Part shown: one piece after another, positions 8,489 to 31,166 of the stretch
How the letters are laid out: every line of letters begins with the position of its first letter
Numbering within the stretch: position 1 is the stretch's first letter
Source: a virus
DNA length: 31,353 bases
IMG/VR virus record: IMGVR_UViG_3300046169_000060
Span: 1-31,353 of that record
Strand: one strand, 5' to 3'
The notes under the pieces: generated by a model
Databases searched by the model: none
What the model was told of the DNA's origin: nothing
The model's input: only the letters and a program-made list of their open reading frames with translations
Made by a program: the position numbers and the translations under genes

Positions 8489-8875
8489 ATGTCAGCAATG
8501 TCCGACTATTTAGAAAACAAGGTGCTTGATCATGCGTTAGGCACTTCGGCTTATACATTCCCATCGCAGGCCTATCTTGGGCTTAGCACGGGAAGCTTAG
8601 GCGATGATGCCTCAGGCACAGAGCTTAGCGGCAATAACTATTCTCGCGTGGCGATAAACTTTGATGCTGCTTCTGGCGGCACAACTGATAACAGCGCTGC
8701 TGTAGAGTTTGCGGCTGCAACTGGTAGCTGGGGAACCATTAGCCATTTTGGCATTTACGATGCGTCATCTTCTGGCAACTTGCTAATCCACGGCGCTTTC
8801 TCTGCGTCAAAAACCATTGCTACTGGTGATATTCTGCGCGTTGCGGCGGGAGACTTAGATATAACGGCAGCATAA
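8489..8875 (+). CDS. Conserved small virion protein (neck or tail)
   Basis: The 128-aa product starts MSAMSDYLENKVLDHALG, followed by YLGLSTGSLGDDASG, NYSRVAINF and a beta-rich end with WGTISHFGIYDASS. I recall this layout from phage proteins labelled tail-fibre-like or neck proteins. AGGAG lies 8 bases before the ATG. It is predicted mostly beta-strand, with no signal peptide. A role in head-tail joining or decoration is inferred from position only. Confidence 0.68.
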   Translation: MSAMSDYLENKVLDHALGTSAYTFPSQAYLGLSTGSLGDDASGTELSGNNYSRVAINFDAASGGTTDNSAAVEFAAATGSWGTISHFGIYDASSSGNLLIHGAFSASKTIATGDILRVAAGDLDITAA

Positions 8876-8876
8876 C

Positions 8877-9575
8877 ATGGCTGAGATACTTGGCCCTACC
8901 CTTGAGCAGCTTGATGCTTGGGGGTCTATGGATGCGCTTGATGCCTTTGGTACGCTTGAGCAGCTAGACAACCTAAACCTGTTTGAAACAACAGGCGCGG
9001 CTTCTGTTAGTGCTTCGGCAACTTCTGTTGCAACAAAAGTTAGAACTATTAGCGCAGCGGTTAGTTTAGCCGTTACGCAAAGCAGTAGTGCAACCCGAAT
9101 ACAGAGCGTTTCTGCCAGCGTTACGGGCGCTGCATCTGTTGCTGCAACGGCTCGCTTTACTGTGTCTATGGCTGGTTCTGCCAGCGTTGCGATTACAGCC
9201 ACGGGCGCTGCTGAAAGAGTACAGCTTGCAAGCGCTGCTGTAGACTTGGCGCTCACCACTGTGGCTGAGCAAAAGGCTGTGCTTAGCACCAGCGCTGCTG
9301 AAAGCATTGCTCTTACGGCTGAGGCTAGGGCTGAGTTTACCGTCTTGATGGCGGGCGCTGAAAGCATTGCTATCACGACAAGCTTGATTGCTGAAAAGCT
9401 AGGCGAGGCGTGGGGCGATATTGCTGCTGGTGGTGAGGCTTGGTCTGACATTTCTGCGGGCAGCGAGGCTTGGTCAGATGTGTCGGCTGGCAGTGAAACT
9501 TGGTCAGACTTGGCCGCATCTAATATTGCATTTGTCCAGCAAAGCGCTGGCTCAGAGAATTGGCTTAATCAATGA
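8877..9575 (+). CDS. Ala/Ser/Thr/Val-rich repeat structural protein
   Basis: The 232-aa product opens with LEQLDAWGSMDALDAFGTLEQL. It then has a long low-complexity stretch (residues about 40-175) of Ala, Ser, Val and Thr with an approximate repeat of the type SASVTGAASVAATAR/FTVSMAGSASVAI. It ends with four to five copies of a W(G/S)D(I/V/L)(S/A)AG unit, roughly ten residues each (residues about 180-216). The composition suggests a beta-rich fibrous virion part. It overlaps the next gene by ATGA. I recognise no family. The central repeat could vary in number between relatives. Confidence 0.7.
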   Translation: MAEILGPTLEQLDAWGSMDALDAFGTLEQLDNLNLFETTGAASVSASATSVATKVRTISAAVSLAVTQSSSATRIQSVSASVTGAASVAATARFTVSMAGSASVAITATGAAERVQLASAAVDLALTTVAEQKAVLSTSAAESIALTAEARAEFTVLMAGAESIAITTSLIAEKLGEAWGDIAAGGEAWSDISAGSEAWSDVSAGSETWSDLAASNIAFVQQSAGSENWLNQ

Positions 9576-11029
9576 TACCTTTTGGCGAATGGCTACCTGA
9601 TCAGTCGGATTTTCAAAACCCCGGCGCTACGATTGCAACCAATGTTATACCTGCTGCGCGTGGCTATCGCCCGTTTGCTAGTTTAACTGAGGTTTCTGCT
9701 GCTGCTACAGACAGGCTGCGCGGTATATACGCCACCAAGGCAACAGATGGCACAGTGACTACTTTTGCTGGTGATCAGGGCAAGCTTTACAAGCTCGACA
9801 ATTCTGACTTTAGCTTAGCCAGCACCAACACTGGTTACACCATGTCCAGTGATATGTATTGGGATTTTGTCAGGTTTGGCGATGAGGTTATCGCTGCTGG
9901 CTCTGACAGCGATGTTTTGCAGGGCTTTACTATTGGCACTGACAGCGCCTTTTCGGCTATAAGCGGTGCGCCTGCTGCAAGGCATTTGGCCGTTATTCGT
10001 GATTTTGTGGTGACAGCAAATGTTACCTATAGCTCAGCAACGCATCGCAGCCGGGTGCGCTGGTCTGCTATTAACGATGCTACAAGCTGGACTATCGGCA
10101 GCAATCAGGCTGACTTCCAAGACATACCTGATGCTGGGCATATCACAGGCTTGGTTGGCGGTGAGTTTGGCGTTGTGCTGATGGAAAGAGCTATTGCCAG
10201 AATGCAATACGTTGGCTCTCCGTTGATCTTTACCTTTGAGAAGGTGGAGACTGGCCACGGGTGTAACTACCCCAATAGTGTTGCCTCACTTGGCCCGACA
10301 CAGGTGTTTTACCTTGCTGACGATGGCTTCTTTATGTTTGACGGTCAGCGAAGCATTCCGATTGGCGCTGAGAAGGTTGACCAGTTTTTCTTTGATGACT
10401 TGGACTTTGCCAACAGCGATAGAATAAGCTGCGCGATTGACCCGGAAAACCAGGTGGTTATGTGGGGCTATCCGTCTGTTAGCGGCGTTGGCAATCCTGA
10501 TAAAATACTGGTGTATAACTACGCAGTGCAGCGTTGGTCGATTGTAAAGCTTGACCATGAGCTTTTGGCGTCTTCTTTGACGCCCAGCTTTACCGTTGAA
10601 AGCTTAGATGCGCTAAACGCTAGTCTTGATGGTTTGACCACATCGCTGGACAGTAGGTTTTACGCTGGTGGATTTTTTCAGCTCAGCGCTGGTAAGGACA
10701 AAAAGATACACACGGTTACGGGTGCGCCTCTTGATGCTGTGCTTGAAACGACTGAGTTTGAGCCTGCAACCATGCGGCAATCGCTGATCCGGGGCGTTAC
10801 GCCATATGTAACCTCTCGCAGCACAACGCCCACTATGACGGTTCAAGTTGGGTCGCGCTCAAGGCAAATTGATAGCCCAAGCTTTAGCACAGCGGTTTCG
10901 CTTAACGATGATAACAACTGCCCAGCGCGTAGCAGCGGCAGGTATCACCGGGTGCGCGTCAACGTGTCTGGCACTTGGCGTTACGCTTTAGGCATTGATG
11001 TTGATGCTGTTGGCATGGGCAAAAGATGA
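9572..11029 (+). CDS. Tail nozzle / stabilisation-like protein
   Basis: This 485-aa, beta-rich protein begins IPFGEWLPDQSDFQNPGAT. It carries repeated WD-like blades (WDFVRFGDEVIAAG, RWSAINDATSWTIG, DIPDAGHITGLVGG, YLADDGFFMFDG, CAIDPENQVVMWGYP, YNYAVQRWSIV), the pattern of a beta-propeller. Proteins with this layout in podovirus-like phages form the tail nozzle or plug DNA after packaging. It is the largest protein between adaptor and ejection genes, which fits. The assignment is from motif resemblance and order, without catalytic residues to confirm it. Confidence 0.78.
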   Translation: MIPFGEWLPDQSDFQNPGATIATNVIPAARGYRPFASLTEVSAAATDRLRGIYATKATDGTVTTFAGDQGKLYKLDNSDFSLASTNTGYTMSSDMYWDFVRFGDEVIAAGSDSDVLQGFTIGTDSAFSAISGAPAARHLAVIRDFVVTANVTYSSATHRSRVRWSAINDATSWTIGSNQADFQDIPDAGHITGLVGGEFGVVLMERAIARMQYVGSPLIFTFEKVETGHGCNYPNSVASLGPTQVFYLADDGFFMFDGQRSIPIGAEKVDQFFFDDLDFANSDRISCAIDPENQVVMWGYPSVSGVGNPDKILVYNYAVQRWSIVKLDHELLASSLTPSFTVESLDALNASLDGLTTSLDSRFYAGGFFQLSAGKDKKIHTVTGAPLDAVLETTEFEPATMRQSLIRGVTPYVTSRSTTPTMTVQVGSRSRQIDSPSFSTAVSLNDDNNCPARSSGRYHRVRVNVSGTWRYALGIDVDAVGMGKR

Positions 11030-23373: not shown

Positions 23374-24433
23374 TCGCGGCTTTCAGTTAGTCTGGAAAGA
23401 CAAAAAGACCAACAACCTCGTTAGGCGGCAAGTACCGCCTGACATCATTGACCCGCAAGCCTATGCTATAAAGATGAACCCTCTCGTCGGGCGTGGCTTG
23501 CTGGACATTGACAAGCGAAACTTCACCCTTGCCCGGCTTACGCCAGAATATCATGCCTTGCTGGATGAGCAGGTGCATAACTTTGTGCAGGGCCATAAGT
23601 ATGCCGACAAGATTCGCCCAGCGCGGCGAGACTGCGTTATGTCGCACATAAAGTTGCACATATTGCCCGCCTTGGGTGATCAGCCTATTGATCGAATAGA
23701 GCCAATCGACATAGCCAACCTGCAAGATGATCTTCGGCAAATCATGCTGCCGCAAACGGTCAACCCGGTGATTGGCACATTGTCTCGCATGATGAAGTTC
23801 TTTGTGCGGCGCGGGTATATCGACAGCAATCCATGTAGAGACATAGACCCGCTTCGGGCTGTAAAGTCTGACCCGCGTTATACTCCCAGCAAAGAGGAAG
23901 TTGAGCGTGTGATTGCGCAATGCTCAGGCTGGAAGAAAACTATGGTTATGCTGGCTGCTGGCACTGGTATGCGGATTAGCGAAATCTTGGCTTTGGAATG
24001 GGGCAATATATCTGGCGATACGATTAGCATTGAGGCGGGCGTAGTTAAGGGCAACATAGGTGCGCCTAAGACGCGAGAAAGCCGCCGTAAGTTGCGCGTG
24101 GATGCGCGGCTAAAGGTTAGGCTGTCAGAAATGCGATTGCAAAGCACGGGTGCATTTTTGTTCACCAATAGGAATGGCAGATTGTTTAGCTCAGTGGATG
24201 TGCTGAACAGGGTGCTATACCCGGCGGTGGCCAAGGCTGGTGTGCAGAAGTTTGGCTTTCATGGATTGCGCAGGTTTTACGAGAATGAGCTGGAAGCGCA
24301 GGGCGTCAGGAAAGACCATATACAGCGCTTGATGGGCCATGAGATTGGCAGCAAGGTGACCGACAAGCATTACCGTGTGGTGCGTCAGGAAGATGTGCTG
24401 CGGGATGACTATGTGATAGAGGTGGGGGGTTAG
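23324..24433 (+). CDS. int: Tyrosine integrase
   Basis: This 369-aa recombinase should join attP to attB in the host tRNA-Arg gene. Residues about 85-165 form the SAM-like core-binding domain. The catalytic domain (about 185-369) shows Arg217 (GTGMRISE), Lys249 (PKTRESRR), His313 and Arg316 (HGLRR), His339 (LMGHE) and the nucleophile Tyr350 (TDKHY), so it is complete. The N-terminal 60 residues likely bind arm sites. I chose ATG 23324, with GAGGAG at 23311-23316, over an upstream TTG (23294). The gene reads away from attP and its stop overlaps that of the repressor on the other strand. Confidence 0.95.
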   Translation: MPTILKLSNLRLYQSSDRGFQLVWKDKKTNNLVRRQVPPDIIDPQAYAIKMNPLVGRGLLDIDKRNFTLARLTPEYHALLDEQVHNFVQGHKYADKIRPARRDCVMSHIKLHILPALGDQPIDRIEPIDIANLQDDLRQIMLPQTVNPVIGTLSRMMKFFVRRGYIDSNPCRDIDPLRAVKSDPRYTPSKEEVERVIAQCSGWKKTMVMLAAGTGMRISEILALEWGNISGDTISIEAGVVKGNIGAPKTRESRRKLRVDARLKVRLSEMRLQSTGAFLFTNRNGRLFSSVDVLNRVLYPAVAKAGVQKFGFHGLRRFYENELEAQGVRKDHIQRLMGHEIGSKVTDKHYRVVRQEDVLRDDYVIEVGG

Positions 24434-24439
24434 CCCCCC
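24424..24439. terminator. Hairpin holding two stop codons
   Basis: GGGGGG (24424-24429), loop TTAG, CCCCCC (24434-24439). The loop holds both the int stop (TAG 24431-24433, plus) and the repressor stop (TAA, minus 24432-24430). No T run follows on either strand, so it may pause or stabilise messages or separate the two convergent units, rather than act as a classic terminator. Confidence 0.5.
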
Positions 24440-25092
24440 GACCTGCTGCGCTGACTACCGACAACAACGTGGATGCCATTTAGGTCAGCCCTGTTGAAAT
24501 GCACAGGCTTATTGCTGCGCACATCTTTAACGATGGCTTTGTCTTCGGTAAGCTCTACAAGCTCACGAAAGATGCCAACGATTTTATCTTGCTGCTGGAA
24601 TATTAGCACAACGTCATCTTTTGGCTGTGCGTCCAGCGTTGGATCAACAAAGAGTGTATCGCCAGAAAAATACCTTGGTTCCATTACAGATCCAAAATTC
24701 ACGGCGGCATACGCTTCGCCCGAGTAGTCTAAAAAGGATGGCTTTCTGATTTGCGTTTGCGCAGCACTTCCTGCGCGAATAATAAACCCATCACCTTTGT
24801 CAAAAGTTTGGCCCATTGTTTGTTTCTCATTGTACAGCGGTATGAAGATGGCTGTGCCTTGAGCTTGCGTAAATGATCGAAATGCTGGCTGCACTTCCGT
24901 AGCTTCATCCATAAGTTCAGCTACGTTTACATTTAGCGCTTCTGCTATTCTCATTAGCTTATCGGCAGCGGGCGCTTTTATAATGCCCTTCTCGATTTTG
25001 CTGATGTTGGCTTGGCTTACCTTGCTTAGCTCCGCTAGTTGCTCCTGCGATACATTTAATTCGCGTCTAATTTTGTACAGCTTTGTGTACAT
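24430..25092 (-). CDS. CI-type phage repressor with altered S24 domain
   Basis: This 220-aa protein has an N-terminal XRE helix-turn-helix (about residues 5-60; NVSQEQLAELSKVSQANISKI) and a C-terminal S24 peptidase-like domain from about residue 100. In LexA/CI the catalytic Ser precedes Met in the SMEP motif. Here the order is GSVMEP (134-139), so Val136 takes that place. The lysine position (lambda FKKL) reads FREL (175-178), i.e. Glu177. Both catalytic residues appear lost, suggesting a repressor that cannot cut itself. GGAGAA lies 5 bases before the ATG. It should maintain lysogeny by binding between itself and the Cro-like gene. Confidence 0.88.
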   Translation of the reverse strand: MYTKLYKIRRELNVSQEQLAELSKVSQANISKIEKGIIKAPAADKLMRIAEALNVNVAELMDEATEVQPAFRSFTQAQGTAIFIPLYNEKQTMGQTFDKGDGFIIRAGSAAQTQIRKPSFLDYSGEAYAAVNFGSVMEPRYFSGDTLFVDPTLDAQPKDDVVLIFQQQDKIVGIFRELVELTEDKAIVKDVRSNKPVHFNRADLNGIHVVVGSQRSRSGG

Positions 25093-26647: not shown

Positions 26648-27447
26648 CCCATACATTCGGCATACATCACAGCATTTCCAATGAAGACTACCACTCCACC
26701 AAGCAGATCGAGGGCCATACGGCAGTCAGCAGCAGCTTTGCAAAAGCTTGGCATAACCTTACGCCAGCTCATGCTGTGGCTGACAAACCGTTTCGCACCA
26801 GCACAGCTTTTGACATAGGCACAGCCACACATAGCTGGGCGCTCGAAGGTGTGCTGCCAACCAAAGGCCCAGCAACAAGGCGTGGCGCGGCATGGCAAAA
26901 CGCTGTGGCCGAAGCTGAGCTATTAGGCAGCACCGCGCTGACCGAAAGCGATTACGAGCGGGTTGAGCAAATGGTGCAAGCTCTGCACCGCAACCCAGCA
27001 ATAGATAAACTGCTCAGCCATAAGCAAGGTATCGTTGAGGCAAGCGTGTTTGCCCTGCATGACAGCGGCATTTGCATGAAAGCCAGACCTGATCTGTATC
27101 TCGAAAAGCAGGGCATTATGGTTGACCTTAAAACAACGCAAAGCGCTGAGCCTTACGATTTTGAACGCAAAGGTATTCACGGGCTGGGCTACGGGCTGCA
27201 AGCCGCTTGGTATTGCAAAACGCTAAGCCTAGCCGGGGTGGATATAAAGCGCTTCCTATTCGCAAACGTAGAAAAAGAGCCACCTTTTGCCACCAGCATA
27301 GTTGAGGTGGGCGATGCGCTGATGAAGCACTGCTCAGAGGCAGTAGAGCGCATCCTGCAAGAAATAACAGAGGCCGAACAAACCAACACCTACGCAACGG
27401 GGTGGCCCACTGTTCACGTTGCTCAACTGCCAGCTTGGCTGGATTAA
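26644..27447 (+). CDS. RecE-like PD-(D/E)XK exonuclease
   Basis: This 267-aa enzyme probably resects dsDNA ends for recombination. The motifs are in RecE/exonuclease VIII order: His63 (ATHSWALEG), Glu132 (GIVEASVF), Asp150 (KARPDLY), Asp161 and Lys163 (VDLKTT), and Gln186 with Tyr190 (QAAWY). I chose ATG 26644, in the stop of the previous gene, over 26608. Such exonucleases usually work with an annealing protein. The SSB-like protein two genes on could serve, since no RecT or Erf is seen here. Confidence 0.82.
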   Translation: MTHTFGIHHSISNEDYHSTKQIEGHTAVSSSFAKAWHNLTPAHAVADKPFRTSTAFDIGTATHSWALEGVLPTKGPATRRGAAWQNAVAEAELLGSTALTESDYERVEQMVQALHRNPAIDKLLSHKQGIVEASVFALHDSGICMKARPDLYLEKQGIMVDLKTTQSAEPYDFERKGIHGLGYGLQAAWYCKTLSLAGVDIKRFLFANVEKEPPFATSIVEVGDALMKHCSEAVERILQEITEAEQTNTYATGWPTVHVAQLPAWLD

Positions 27448-27466
27448 TCAAAAATGGAGAATGAGA

Positions 27467-28306
27467 ATGAATGCACTAACAGGAAAGTTTATCCAAGTAG
27501 AAGTAAGAAAAATAACGGCATCTGCTGCCGAAAAACTACTCGAAAAAAACCATAAAAATCGCAAGCCTCGCAAGTCACACATCCAGCACTTAGCCCGGCA
27601 AATGTCAAAGGGCAGATGGAAGCTTAGCCCGCAGCCTATTGTAATCACAAAATCAGGCAACCTTGTTGACGGTCAACACAGGCTAATAGCGGTTGTGGAA
27701 AGCGGGGCAACGATAGAAGTGCTTGTCGCCATAATTCCTGATGAAAGCCAGCAAGAAATATTTACCGTGCTAGACCAAGGTGCTGCTAGAAGTGTAGCGG
27801 ATATTTTGCATGAAGATCGTCGCATTATTTTGCCAATCAACTTCTTGCTACGCGCTGGAATAGGCATAAACAAAGCATCACCAGAAGATGTGCAAATATT
27901 GCTGAACAGTGAAATGGGAAGCCTGTTGCGCATCTTGCATAACGAAATCAAGCCTAGCAGCAAAACATGGAAGCACACGGCATTTCGTGCTGCCTTTTGC
28001 GTTGCGGTGCTAAGCAACTCAGTCAGCAAAGAGAAAGCAATCAGCGCGTACAAAAGCCTAAACGAAGATGCGCTGACAGATTGGCCTAAGGTTTTTGCGG
28101 CGCTTTACCGCCAGCTTAACGAATTAGATCGGCCAATTATAACAAGCGGTAGATCATTGGATAACGACTTTTTTATTCGCGGGTTGTTTGCGTTTTTACA
28201 CTTCAACAAACCCACCAAATCAATCCGCATCACACCCAGCTTCAAAGAAGACGCCAAGAACATGGTTCAAAGCGTTTTAGAAGACCTTGGCGCAGCTCGC
28301 GCTTAA
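27467..28306 (+). CDS. ParB-like nuclease/CTPase-domain protein
   Basis: The 279-aa product has a ParB-type N-terminal domain: ITASAAEKLLEKN, KSHIQHLARQMSKGRW, LSPQPIVITKSGNLVDGQHRL (key DGQHRL at 68-73) and a VLVAIIPDE element. The rest (about 95-279) is helical, with EDALTDWPKVFAALY. I chose ATG 27467, 6 bases after GGAGA, among three close Met codons. There is no ParA nearby, so plasmid-style partition is unlikely. Related stand-alone proteins sit among phage recombination genes with unclear functions, perhaps DNA binding or nicking. Confidence 0.75.
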   Translation: MNALTGKFIQVEVRKITASAAEKLLEKNHKNRKPRKSHIQHLARQMSKGRWKLSPQPIVITKSGNLVDGQHRLIAVVESGATIEVLVAIIPDESQQEIFTVLDQGAARSVADILHEDRRIILPINFLLRAGIGINKASPEDVQILLNSEMGSLLRILHNEIKPSSKTWKHTAFRAAFCVAVLSNSVSKEKAISAYKSLNEDALTDWPKVFAALYRQLNELDRPIITSGRSLDNDFFIRGLFAFLHFNKPTKSIRITPSFKEDAKNMVQSVLEDLGAARA

Positions 28307-28944: not shown

Positions 28945-30723
28945 ATGCCTGACTTTCCAGCCGCATATTGGTCGCAATACGGGCAGGCCATCATTAACCA
29001 GCTTGAGCTTAAAAAGCTTGCAGTTGGGGAATGGCATGGTGCCTGCCCGAATTGCGGCGGCAAGGATCGCTTCTGGATAAGCGAATATAAAAGCGAAGTC
29101 AGAGTGCATTGCCGACAGTGCAACGACTTCGCTGAAATACAAAAAGCACTAACCAGCATGGGTCTATGGCCCAGCAAAGATAATATTGTGCAGTTGAGGG
29201 AACGAGAAGTGCCTAATAATCAAGATTGGTTTGAGGATGACGCACCCTATCACATCAGAAAAGGTGTAGAGCTGCACGGCGCTGTGCTGGATGGCAATAC
29301 GGTGGTCGTGCCCCTGTTTAACGCGCAACGCGAAAAAGTTGGCCACCAAAGAATAAGCCCGGATGGACAAAAGCGCTTTTCCACAGGCCTAGCTAAAGAT
29401 GGTGCCTTTGGCGTGTGCGGAAAAATAACGCACGGAAAAGCGTACATATGCGAGGGCTGGGCCACAGCCTGTAGCGTTTACATGGCGCACCAAGAAGATG
29501 AACAAGCAGAACAATGCGCAGCTATATTTGCACTAGACGCTGGCAACCTGCCAAAGGTGTGCGAAGCGCTGCAAGAAGCCTTCCCAAAGCTGGAATTGGT
29601 CATAGCCGCAGATAATGACGAGCCGGGCATAAAAGCAGCTAAAGCCACAGGTAAACCATATGCAGCGCCCGGCACAAAAGGAGCAGACTGGAACGACATA
29701 CATGCAGCCTTAGGTGCAGCAGCGGTAAGGCAAGGGCTGCGCGGAGCCAAAACCCCGGCAAAGCTGTTTACGCATGTGTCCGACATAGAGATGAAGCCGC
29801 CAGCGTGGCTTATCGAGGGGATGCTTGAGCAAGAGGCGCTAACGATGTGCTTTGGATCGCCCGGCGCAGGCAAAACATTCGCTGTGCTGGATATGGCAAT
29901 GTGTATTGCAGCAGGCAAAGCATGGCATGGCAAGGAAGTTGAGCAAGGGCTGGTGCTGTACATCGCTGGCGAGGGCCATGCAGGCTTTGCAAGACGGGTC
30001 GCAGCTTGGTCAAAGGTCAACGATGTAAGCTTGGATGAGGTGCCGTTCTATAAGTCTAACTCAGCAGTCATAATGAATGACGAAACAGACGCCGAAGACT
30101 TGCAGCAAGAACTGCAAAGCATAGCTGATAGCATTGGCAAGCCAAAGCTTATCGTGCTGGATACATTAGCAAGAACCATGATTGGCGATGAAAATAGCTC
30201 AGAGCGAGTCGGGGAATACATAAAGGCATTAGACAGCATAAAGCAGCAATATAACTGCACCGTGCTAATCGTGCATCACACCGGGCATGGCAATCAAAAC
30301 AGGGCTAGGGGTAGCTCAGTGCTTTACGGGGCGCTGGACGCTGAGTTCAAGGTTGGCACATGGGGCGATAATATGGTGCTAATAGAAAGCACCAAAATGA
30401 AGGACGCCGAAGAGCCAGAGGCAATGGCGTTTCTCAAAATGCCAGTCGAGTTGGTAACGCCAAACGGGGATGAAACTAGCTCGCTCGTGCTGGAATATAC
30501 GCCAGACAAACCACGCAGCAAGAAAGACCCGGATTACATTCGGCAGGTAATAATTGACCAGATCAACACGGTGGATGCGTTCGGGGAAGCGCAAAGAGCA
30601 GACCTAAAAGAAGCTGTTGGGCTGGAGCTGGAATGCTCTCAAAGGACAGCAAATAGATACATCAAAAAGCTGATCGACGAGGGTGTTTTGGCCCAGCGCG
30701 GCGGTGCTGTGGTGGTGGCGTGA
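28945..30723 (+). CDS. Primase-helicase replication protein
   Basis: The 592-aa product joins three parts. A zinc ribbon holds Cys34/37 and Cys56/59 (CPNCGGKDRF ... CRQCND). A TOPRIM primase core has Glu170 (YICEG) and Asp223/Asp225 (AADNDEPG). A RecA-like helicase has Walker A GSPGAGKT (304-311), Walker B LIVLD (402-406) and a HHTGHG element (444-449). A C-terminal helix-turn-helix (SQRTANRYIKKLIDEG) could bind origin DNA. It should prime and unwind for the host polymerase. Directly downstream lies an iteron cluster that may be its origin. Confidence 0.93.
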   Translation: MPDFPAAYWSQYGQAIINQLELKKLAVGEWHGACPNCGGKDRFWISEYKSEVRVHCRQCNDFAEIQKALTSMGLWPSKDNIVQLREREVPNNQDWFEDDAPYHIRKGVELHGAVLDGNTVVVPLFNAQREKVGHQRISPDGQKRFSTGLAKDGAFGVCGKITHGKAYICEGWATACSVYMAHQEDEQAEQCAAIFALDAGNLPKVCEALQEAFPKLELVIAADNDEPGIKAAKATGKPYAAPGTKGADWNDIHAALGAAAVRQGLRGAKTPAKLFTHVSDIEMKPPAWLIEGMLEQEALTMCFGSPGAGKTFAVLDMAMCIAAGKAWHGKEVEQGLVLYIAGEGHAGFARRVAAWSKVNDVSLDEVPFYKSNSAVIMNDETDAEDLQQELQSIADSIGKPKLIVLDTLARTMIGDENSSERVGEYIKALDSIKQQYNCTVLIVHHTGHGNQNRARGSSVLYGALDAEFKVGTWGDNMVLIESTKMKDAEEPEAMAFLKMPVELVTPNGDETSSLVLEYTPDKPRSKKDPDYIRQVIIDQINTVDAFGEAQRADLKEAVGLELECSQRTANRYIKKLIDEGVLAQRGGAVVVA

Positions 30724-30725
30724 AA

Positions 30726-31166
30726 ATGGCCCCAGGACACGCTCAGGACAAAATAAAAAGGGGTTGTCCCGGCTGTCCTGAGGGTTTGTCCTCGTGTCCT
30801 GAGTTTTGTCCTGAGAAAGTTAAGCAAAAACAATGGTTTATAAAAGCTCAGGACAAACTCAGGACAGACCTAGGACAAACACGGGTCACTATAAGGTCAC
30901 TCAGGACAAACCCCGTGTCTCTAGACACGGGTTGTCCTGTCCTCAAGACCTGCCCGGAGAAATGGAAAGATTATTCATTACTTGGTGAAAAAGAATTTCA
31001 ATCTTTGCTGGAAGAAATCACCTGTCTTGCTGAGTTGGAAGGCTTAGCCAATCGCAGGAAAATTCTAAACGCTCCGCAGCTCACCCGGTGGAATGAAAGC
31101 CAGCGCCAAATGCTGATCACCCGAAAGCTTGAATTGCAAAACATGAAGAAAGGGAAACGCAAATGA
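30726..31166 (+). CDS. Iteron-encoded Cys-Pro-rich protein
   Basis: The start is either ATG 30726 or GTG 30720, which overlaps the helicase TGA. The first about 75 residues are encoded by the AGGACA repeats and therefore read as CPGCPEG, SSCPEFCPEK, CPVLKTCPEK and similar. The second half (residues about 78-146) is an ordinary charged helix (EKEFQSLLEEITCLAELEG, ESQRQMLITRKLELQNMKK). The stop overlaps the next ATG. The N-terminal part may be read for the sake of the DNA sites rather than the protein. The C-terminal half is more likely the functional piece. Confidence 0.55.
   Translation: MAPGHAQDKIKRGCPGCPEGLSSCPEFCPEKVKQKQWFIKAQDKLRTDLGQTRVTIRSLRTNPVSLDTGCPVLKTCPEKWKDYSLLGEKEFQSLLEEITCLAELEGLANRRKILNAPQLTRWNESQRQMLITRKLELQNMKKGKRK
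30734..30943. repeat. AGGACA iteron cluster with palindrome, candidate origin
   Basis: AGGACA occurs 12 times in 210 bp. Forward copies begin at 30734, 30745, 30850, 30861, 30872 and 30903; reverse copies (TGTCCT) at 30774, 30787, 30795, 30807, 30933 and 30938. Several forward copies are exactly 11 bp apart (30734/30745, 30850/30861/30872), about one helical turn, with CTCAGGACAAA the fuller unit. At 30912-30931 CCCGTGTCT and AGACACGGG form a perfect 9-bp palindrome around CT, bracketed by inverted AGGACA copies at 30903 and 30933. Between the groups (30813-30849) the DNA is A/T-rich. Iterons, palindrome and an adjacent helicase gene are typical of replication origins. Confidence 0.8.

Follow-up and report, generated by a model that had tools for sequence, protein, structure and literature searches.

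A candidate replication origin with lineage-specific iterons and a conserved palindrome downstream of a primase-helicase gene in a temperate phage and its relatives

The stretch of DNA analysed here (the window) comprises positions 1 to 31,353 of the IMG/VR virus record IMGVR_UViG_3300046169_000060, and the cluster of repeats and the palindrome located at 30734-30943, just downstream of a primase-helicase gene, are very probably the site at which replication of this phage starts. A replication origin had been proposed in the original prediction, and this reading was supported by comparing the sequences of relatives. In the mechanism that we propose, the primase-helicase encoded upstream would use its C-terminal winged helix to bind the AGGACA iterons, the A/T-rich stretch between the iteron sets would melt and the RecA-fold helicase would load on the melted stretch without a separate loader. 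The palindrome between inverted iterons would be extruded as a DNA hairpin and, more speculatively, this hairpin might offer a start site to the Toprim primase of the same protein, possibly on both strands given that the palindrome is self-complementary. We have high confidence in this reading as a whole, i.e. a temperate-phage origin with iteron binding by a winged helix, A/T melting, helicase self-loading and a hairpin.

The proteins encoded in the window include a phage integrase, CI-like and Cro-like regulators, an SU10-type portal protein, a terminase, a virion protein and a lysin. Satellites are recognized by their lack of virion genes and, given that the window has its own portal, terminase, virion and lysis genes, the carrier is a full phage and not a satellite. 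The CI-like repressor is encoded at 24430-25092, and a protein with a weak N-terminal match to a ParB-like domain is encoded at 27419-28306, between the exonuclease and SSB genes. The segment 580-666 is strongly C-rich, containing several runs of 5-9 C, and stands out from the rest of the window. The GC skew of a complete relative, Roseobacter phage CRP-406, was monotonic and uninformative with regard to the origin.

The primase-helicase gene (28945-30723, plus strand) encodes a Zn-ribbon, a Toprim domain, a RecA-fold helicase of the AAA_25 type and a C-terminal winged helix, as judged from Pfam matches (AAA_25, 1e-41; Toprim_3, 3e-7; Zn_Ribbon_Prim, 3e-5) and an AlphaFold model with a pLDDT of 84.6. 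In its primase-helicase part the protein matched T7 gp4 by fold, and its helicase domain matched RSF1010 RepA (TM 0.73 by target length), which was also the one sequence relative with a solved structure (E 2e-4). The predicted winged helix, which is the proposed iteron binder, is encoded at 30529-30720 (plus strand) and had the order H-E-H-H-E-E in the full-length model. When modelled as a domain it reached a pLDDT of 89.8 and aligned to many winged-helix DNA-binding domains with Z up to 9.9. Foldseek returned no match with E <0.001 for the C-terminal domain and only generic winged-helix matches, and we therefore do not claim any closest winged-helix family; the P4 alpha domain was absent among the Foldseek matches listed, which excludes nothing.

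The repeats begin 11 bases past the helicase stop codon. Searching the window for AGGACA gave six copies on the plus strand (30734, 30745, 30850, 30861, 30872 and 30903) and six on the minus strand (30774, 30787, 30795, 30807, 30933 and 30938), as compared to a mean of 0.23 and a maximum of 3 copies in 5000 dinucleotide shuffles of the same 210 bases. No 6-mer was present in more than 8 copies in any other 210-base stretch of the window, and those that were this frequent were runs of C. The left set found by the motif search consists of two forward iterons exactly 11 bp apart (30734-30750) followed by four reverse iterons (30774-30812), the latter being kept in loci L001-L003 and partly in L004 and L006. 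The right set contains three forward iterons at exact 11-bp steps (30850-30877), and its GACA columns were invariant or nearly so in a MAFFT alignment of relatives. The spacing between neighbouring reverse copies was 5 to 13 bp. Between the two sets lies an A/T-rich stretch (30806-30845) that is a candidate melting site, with an A+T content of 72.5%, which is within the top 0.5% of the 40-base stretches of the window, and a AAAACAAT-like stretch was found at the matching place in L004-L018, where the reading frames differ.

The remaining iterons frame the palindrome CCCGTGTCT-CT-AGACACGGG at 30912-30931; within the 31,353 bases, no other perfect inverted repeat has arms of 8 or more and a loop of 4 or fewer. 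A forward iteron, identified by motif search and alignment, forms its left flank (30903-30908), and two reverse iterons with one base in common form its right flank (30933-30943). When the palindrome and its flanking iterons were folded as DNA, a 16-pair stem with a two-base bulge was obtained (-16.4 kcal/mol; z -7.2 for the plus strand and z -6.6 for the minus strand). The twelve AGGACA copies with six on each strand, the 11-bp steps, the A/T-rich spacer, the 20-bp palindrome inside inverted iterons and the position directly after the primase-helicase gene had all been described in the original prediction, and every one of these features was recovered.

To place this arrangement among relatives, loci were collected from two viral-contig scans, one genome-contig scan and one phage record; a DNA search of phage records had given one short match only and protein-level searches were therefore used. 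The resulting 228 loci (numbered with the prefix L) were reduced to 130 non-redundant clusters on the basis of shared words in the origin region. Within the 300 bases around the helicase stop codon, 108 of the 130 clusters contained some 7-mer at least four times, a level that was reached in about 2% of 7,226 other 300-base stretches from the same loci, and in 101 no other stretch of the locus equalled the repeat count at the helicase stop. The spacing of same-strand repeats across the relatives peaked at 11-12 bp. The repeat itself differed between lineages: CAGGACA in the kin of the window, AAAGACA in L008 and L009, TTGGACA in L012-L018, GCGGGACA in other loci, GCTGGAAA in CRP-406, GTGGGGA or AAGTGGG in enterobacterial elements, and ATTCCAA and CGTCACG in loci from planctomycete assemblies. 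As judged from these sequences, the predicted origin design is common to many distant phages and phage-like islands, each lineage having its own repeat. The paper describing CRP-406 (PMC12629253) mentions no origin, iteron or hairpin; coverage of the literature was partial and an earlier description is possible.

The distance between iterons was correlated with the distance between C-terminal domains when the helicase core was held constant (partial Mantel r 0.312, p 0.001, n=109), and the converse correlation of iteron with core given the C-terminus was lower (partial r 0.144). Given that C-terminal and core distances are themselves correlated (r 0.90) and that the loci are not fully independent, part of this signal reflects shared ancestry, and the test is supportive rather than proof. 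A second observation came from L010 and L099, whose DNA is 92% identical up to the middle of the helicase gene and again from 257 bases past its stop codon, while the intervening segment, which covers the second half of the helicase, the winged helix, the iterons and the hairpin, gave no alignment except for one 46-base piece. This pattern indicates that the putative initiator and its site were swapped jointly as a cassette that begins midway through the helicase gene and ends with the origin; since the swapped stretch includes part of the helicase, the winged helix is not singled out. Co-variation and joint exchange thus back the C-terminal domain of the helicase as the likely binder, one of two candidates that had been named at the outset.

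The other candidate was the ParB-like protein, and the iterons could in principle be an operator or centromere for this protein or for the CI-like repressor, serving partition or regulation. The weak ParB-like domain match in the window and the fact that clustered repeats are known also at centromeres are in line with this idea, but CRP-406 retains both iterons and palindrome and has nothing ParB-like annotated in its replication region, including the place that corresponds to 27419-28306 in the window. In addition, the iteron sequence tracks the C-terminus of the helicase and is exchanged with it, and across the family the repeats lie 3' of the gene for this protein. We therefore regard an operator or centromere as very unlikely and binding by the ParB-like protein as not borne out.

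Palindromes between inverted iterons were recurrent across the helicase family. With a strict CTNNAG centre and arms of at least 6, palindromes near the helicase stop were found in 28 of 130 clusters, whereas 0.58 would be expected on the basis of the remaining parts of these loci, and the letters of their arms varied. Compensatory changes were counted in 14 comparisons between related hairpins of equal length, which were paired by their own axis because the MAFFT alignment was out of register in the hairpin. The changed arm pairs comprised 25 that were compensated, none with a single wobble change and 4 that were broken, mostly at the stem ends; independent change of the two sides would have given about 2 compensated pairs. 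Already the nearest pair, the window and L002, with helicases that are 97% identical, differed by one compensated change. Given that the hairpins were picked as palindromes, the choice of examples favours perfect pairing; such selection does not explain the enrichment of the centre or the changes between near-identical pairs. From these patterns in the sequences we infer that the palindrome forms a DNA hairpin or cruciform that is conserved as a structure while its letters change.

The CTNNAG palindrome was mostly absent in L021-L080 and other enterobacterial kin, whose inverted iterons often enclose a TATATA-type element instead. The hairpin is accordingly not universal, and the TATATA-type element points to a second type of origin within this helicase family. 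Palindromes of up to about 45 nt were present just past the helicase stop in L165-L180 (planctomycete and Chloroflexota assemblies), with iterons within the stem and CCTTAAGG or CCCTTATAGGG at the centre. DnaG-type primases begin opposite CTN, and the 5'-CT in the loop region of each strand would be compatible with the start of a primase of this type, which is at present speculation.

A hairpin at this position might instead act as RNA in the helicase mRNA, as an attenuator or in translational control of the next gene. The genes are co-directional, the palindrome precedes a conserved small ORF and the fold is stable, all of which would fit such a role. The changes in the arms, on the other hand, include no single change of the G-U type, an RNA element would not be expected to contain direct 11-bp repeats or to have letters that vary by lineage in step with a DNA-binding domain, and the palindrome had no terminator-like match except on the minus strand. 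Rfam gave no match at curated thresholds, the best being microRNA hairpins far below their gathering scores. An RNA element is thus highly improbable. The same small probability is assigned to a rolling-circle origin, in which an HUH endonuclease would nick the palindrome as in geminivirus-like origins. Its anatomy is similar with respect to lineage-specific iterons and a hairpin whose arms vary freely around a conserved centre, but no HUH replication nuclease was detected among the 20 window proteins scanned (small or undetected ones are possible), none is annotated in the complete CRP-406 genome, and the neighbouring protein is a primase-helicase.

An open frame (30720-31166, plus strand) runs through the repeats into a conserved small protein, and it had been suggested that the same DNA acts as gene and origin at once. 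The original prediction had also named the conservation of iterons versus amino acids in relatives as a check, and this comparison did not favour a dual role. In the repeat part, differences were spread evenly over codon positions 1/2/3 (14/14/13 versus L004 and 15/14/16 versus L006), whereas downstream there was a third-position excess (26/12/35 and 26/13/33, respectively), i.e. coding constraint was seen only at about 30949-31166. The frame was closed inside or after the origin in 13 of the 27 relatives having the downstream protein, and in L012-L018 the iterons and the palindrome persist in a different reading, with the small ORF beginning after them in most. The even distribution of changes and the closed frames indicate that the repeats are not kept for the protein, even if translation may pass through them. 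That the repeats are in essence the Cys-Pro-rich N-terminus of a real protein, with the DNA symmetry being secondary, is therefore extremely unlikely, the frame being open from 30720 in the window and L001-L006 but without codon constraint over the repeats. In most close relatives the origin is followed by this small conserved protein, which has a core resembling LEGLANRRKxLNAPxLxRW...RKxEL (30949-31166 in the window; L004, L010, L012, L081 and others); it had no Pfam, PHROG or NCBIfam match and could be a replication accessory protein.

The layout is shared by a full phage, by a cultured marine phage and by loci that come from many groups of bacteria. It is conceivable, with somewhat less than even confidence, that these loci represent a widespread class of phage origins, in which a single fused primase-helicase-winged-helix protein would recognize both lineage-specific iterons and a CTNNAG-centred hairpin that primes the two strands, with initiator and origin moving as an exchangeable cassette. 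The commonest repeat 3' of an AAA_25 helicase gene provides a rule for finding origins in uncultured phages, the pairs of domain and binding site across lineages form a natural set for learning winged-helix specificity, and the role of the conserved hairpin is directly testable.

The closest known layout is that of the SaPI/PICI satellites, whose origins are located 3' of rep, with two iteron sets around an A/T-rich stretch and a C-terminal domain that binds the iterons (PMC6092414, PMC7581432), a rep-ori layout that one paper called unique to those satellites. The window is similar in that its putative origin lies immediately 3' of the initiator helicase gene, with two iteron sets flanking an A/T-rich region, and in that the helicase has a predicted C-terminal winged helix with which the iterons appear to co-vary. 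It differs in having an extra conserved palindrome and in that its carrier is a phage which itself encodes a portal, a terminase and lysis proteins. Function was tested in one of these papers for the pri-rep-ori of EcCICFT073, in which GGTAGACA repeats are found 3' of the primase gene; unlike the window, this element carries a Rep of the 'DNA primase family' and not a RepA-family helicase. A PICI-like island at tRNA-Pro in the chromosome of E. coli ETEC1749 (L230) has a 'helicase RepA family' gene (8530-9945) followed by AAAAGTGAGGA repeats and then ProQ/FinO and PerC genes, a PICI-like plan and gene order, and partial or better matches to this stretch were present in 805 of 5,426 complete E. 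coli genomes.

The oriV of RSF1010 (IncQ) also contains iterons, and replication starts at stem-loops with RepA helicase, RepB' primase and RepC as separate proteins (PMC4234260, PMC4538821). The window shares the RepA-type RecA fold, but has the three tasks on one fused protein instead of three, a Zn-ribbon/Toprim primase instead of the AEP-type RepB', no separate RepC and a single symmetrical palindrome instead of two ssi stem-loops. In plasmid pRN1 and phage BIP-1 a stem-loop origin, conserved in structure but not in letters, lies downstream of a primase-helicase-winged-helix gene (PMC4234260). The stem-loop of the window is likewise 3' of the gene and conserved in structure rather than letters, whereas in pRN1 an AEP primase and an SF3 helicase take the place of Toprim and AAA_25, the stem-loop is far longer (about 100 nt) and iterons are absent. 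The helicase of P4 alpha is of the SF3/D5 type, and the AAA_25 helicase of the window with its RecA fold is set apart from it on this basis. Like the window protein, P4 alpha, which acts with ori/crr, combines a Toprim primase, a helicase and an origin-binding winged helix in one protein (PMC4234260). The window thus joins iterons like those of PICIs to a stem-loop and to a single protein for the three tasks; the kind of origin is already known, and the PICI layout together with a hairpin in a full phage is a variant of it. Given that this layout is found in phages as well as satellites, we suggest that it is one origin system, common to both and traded between them.
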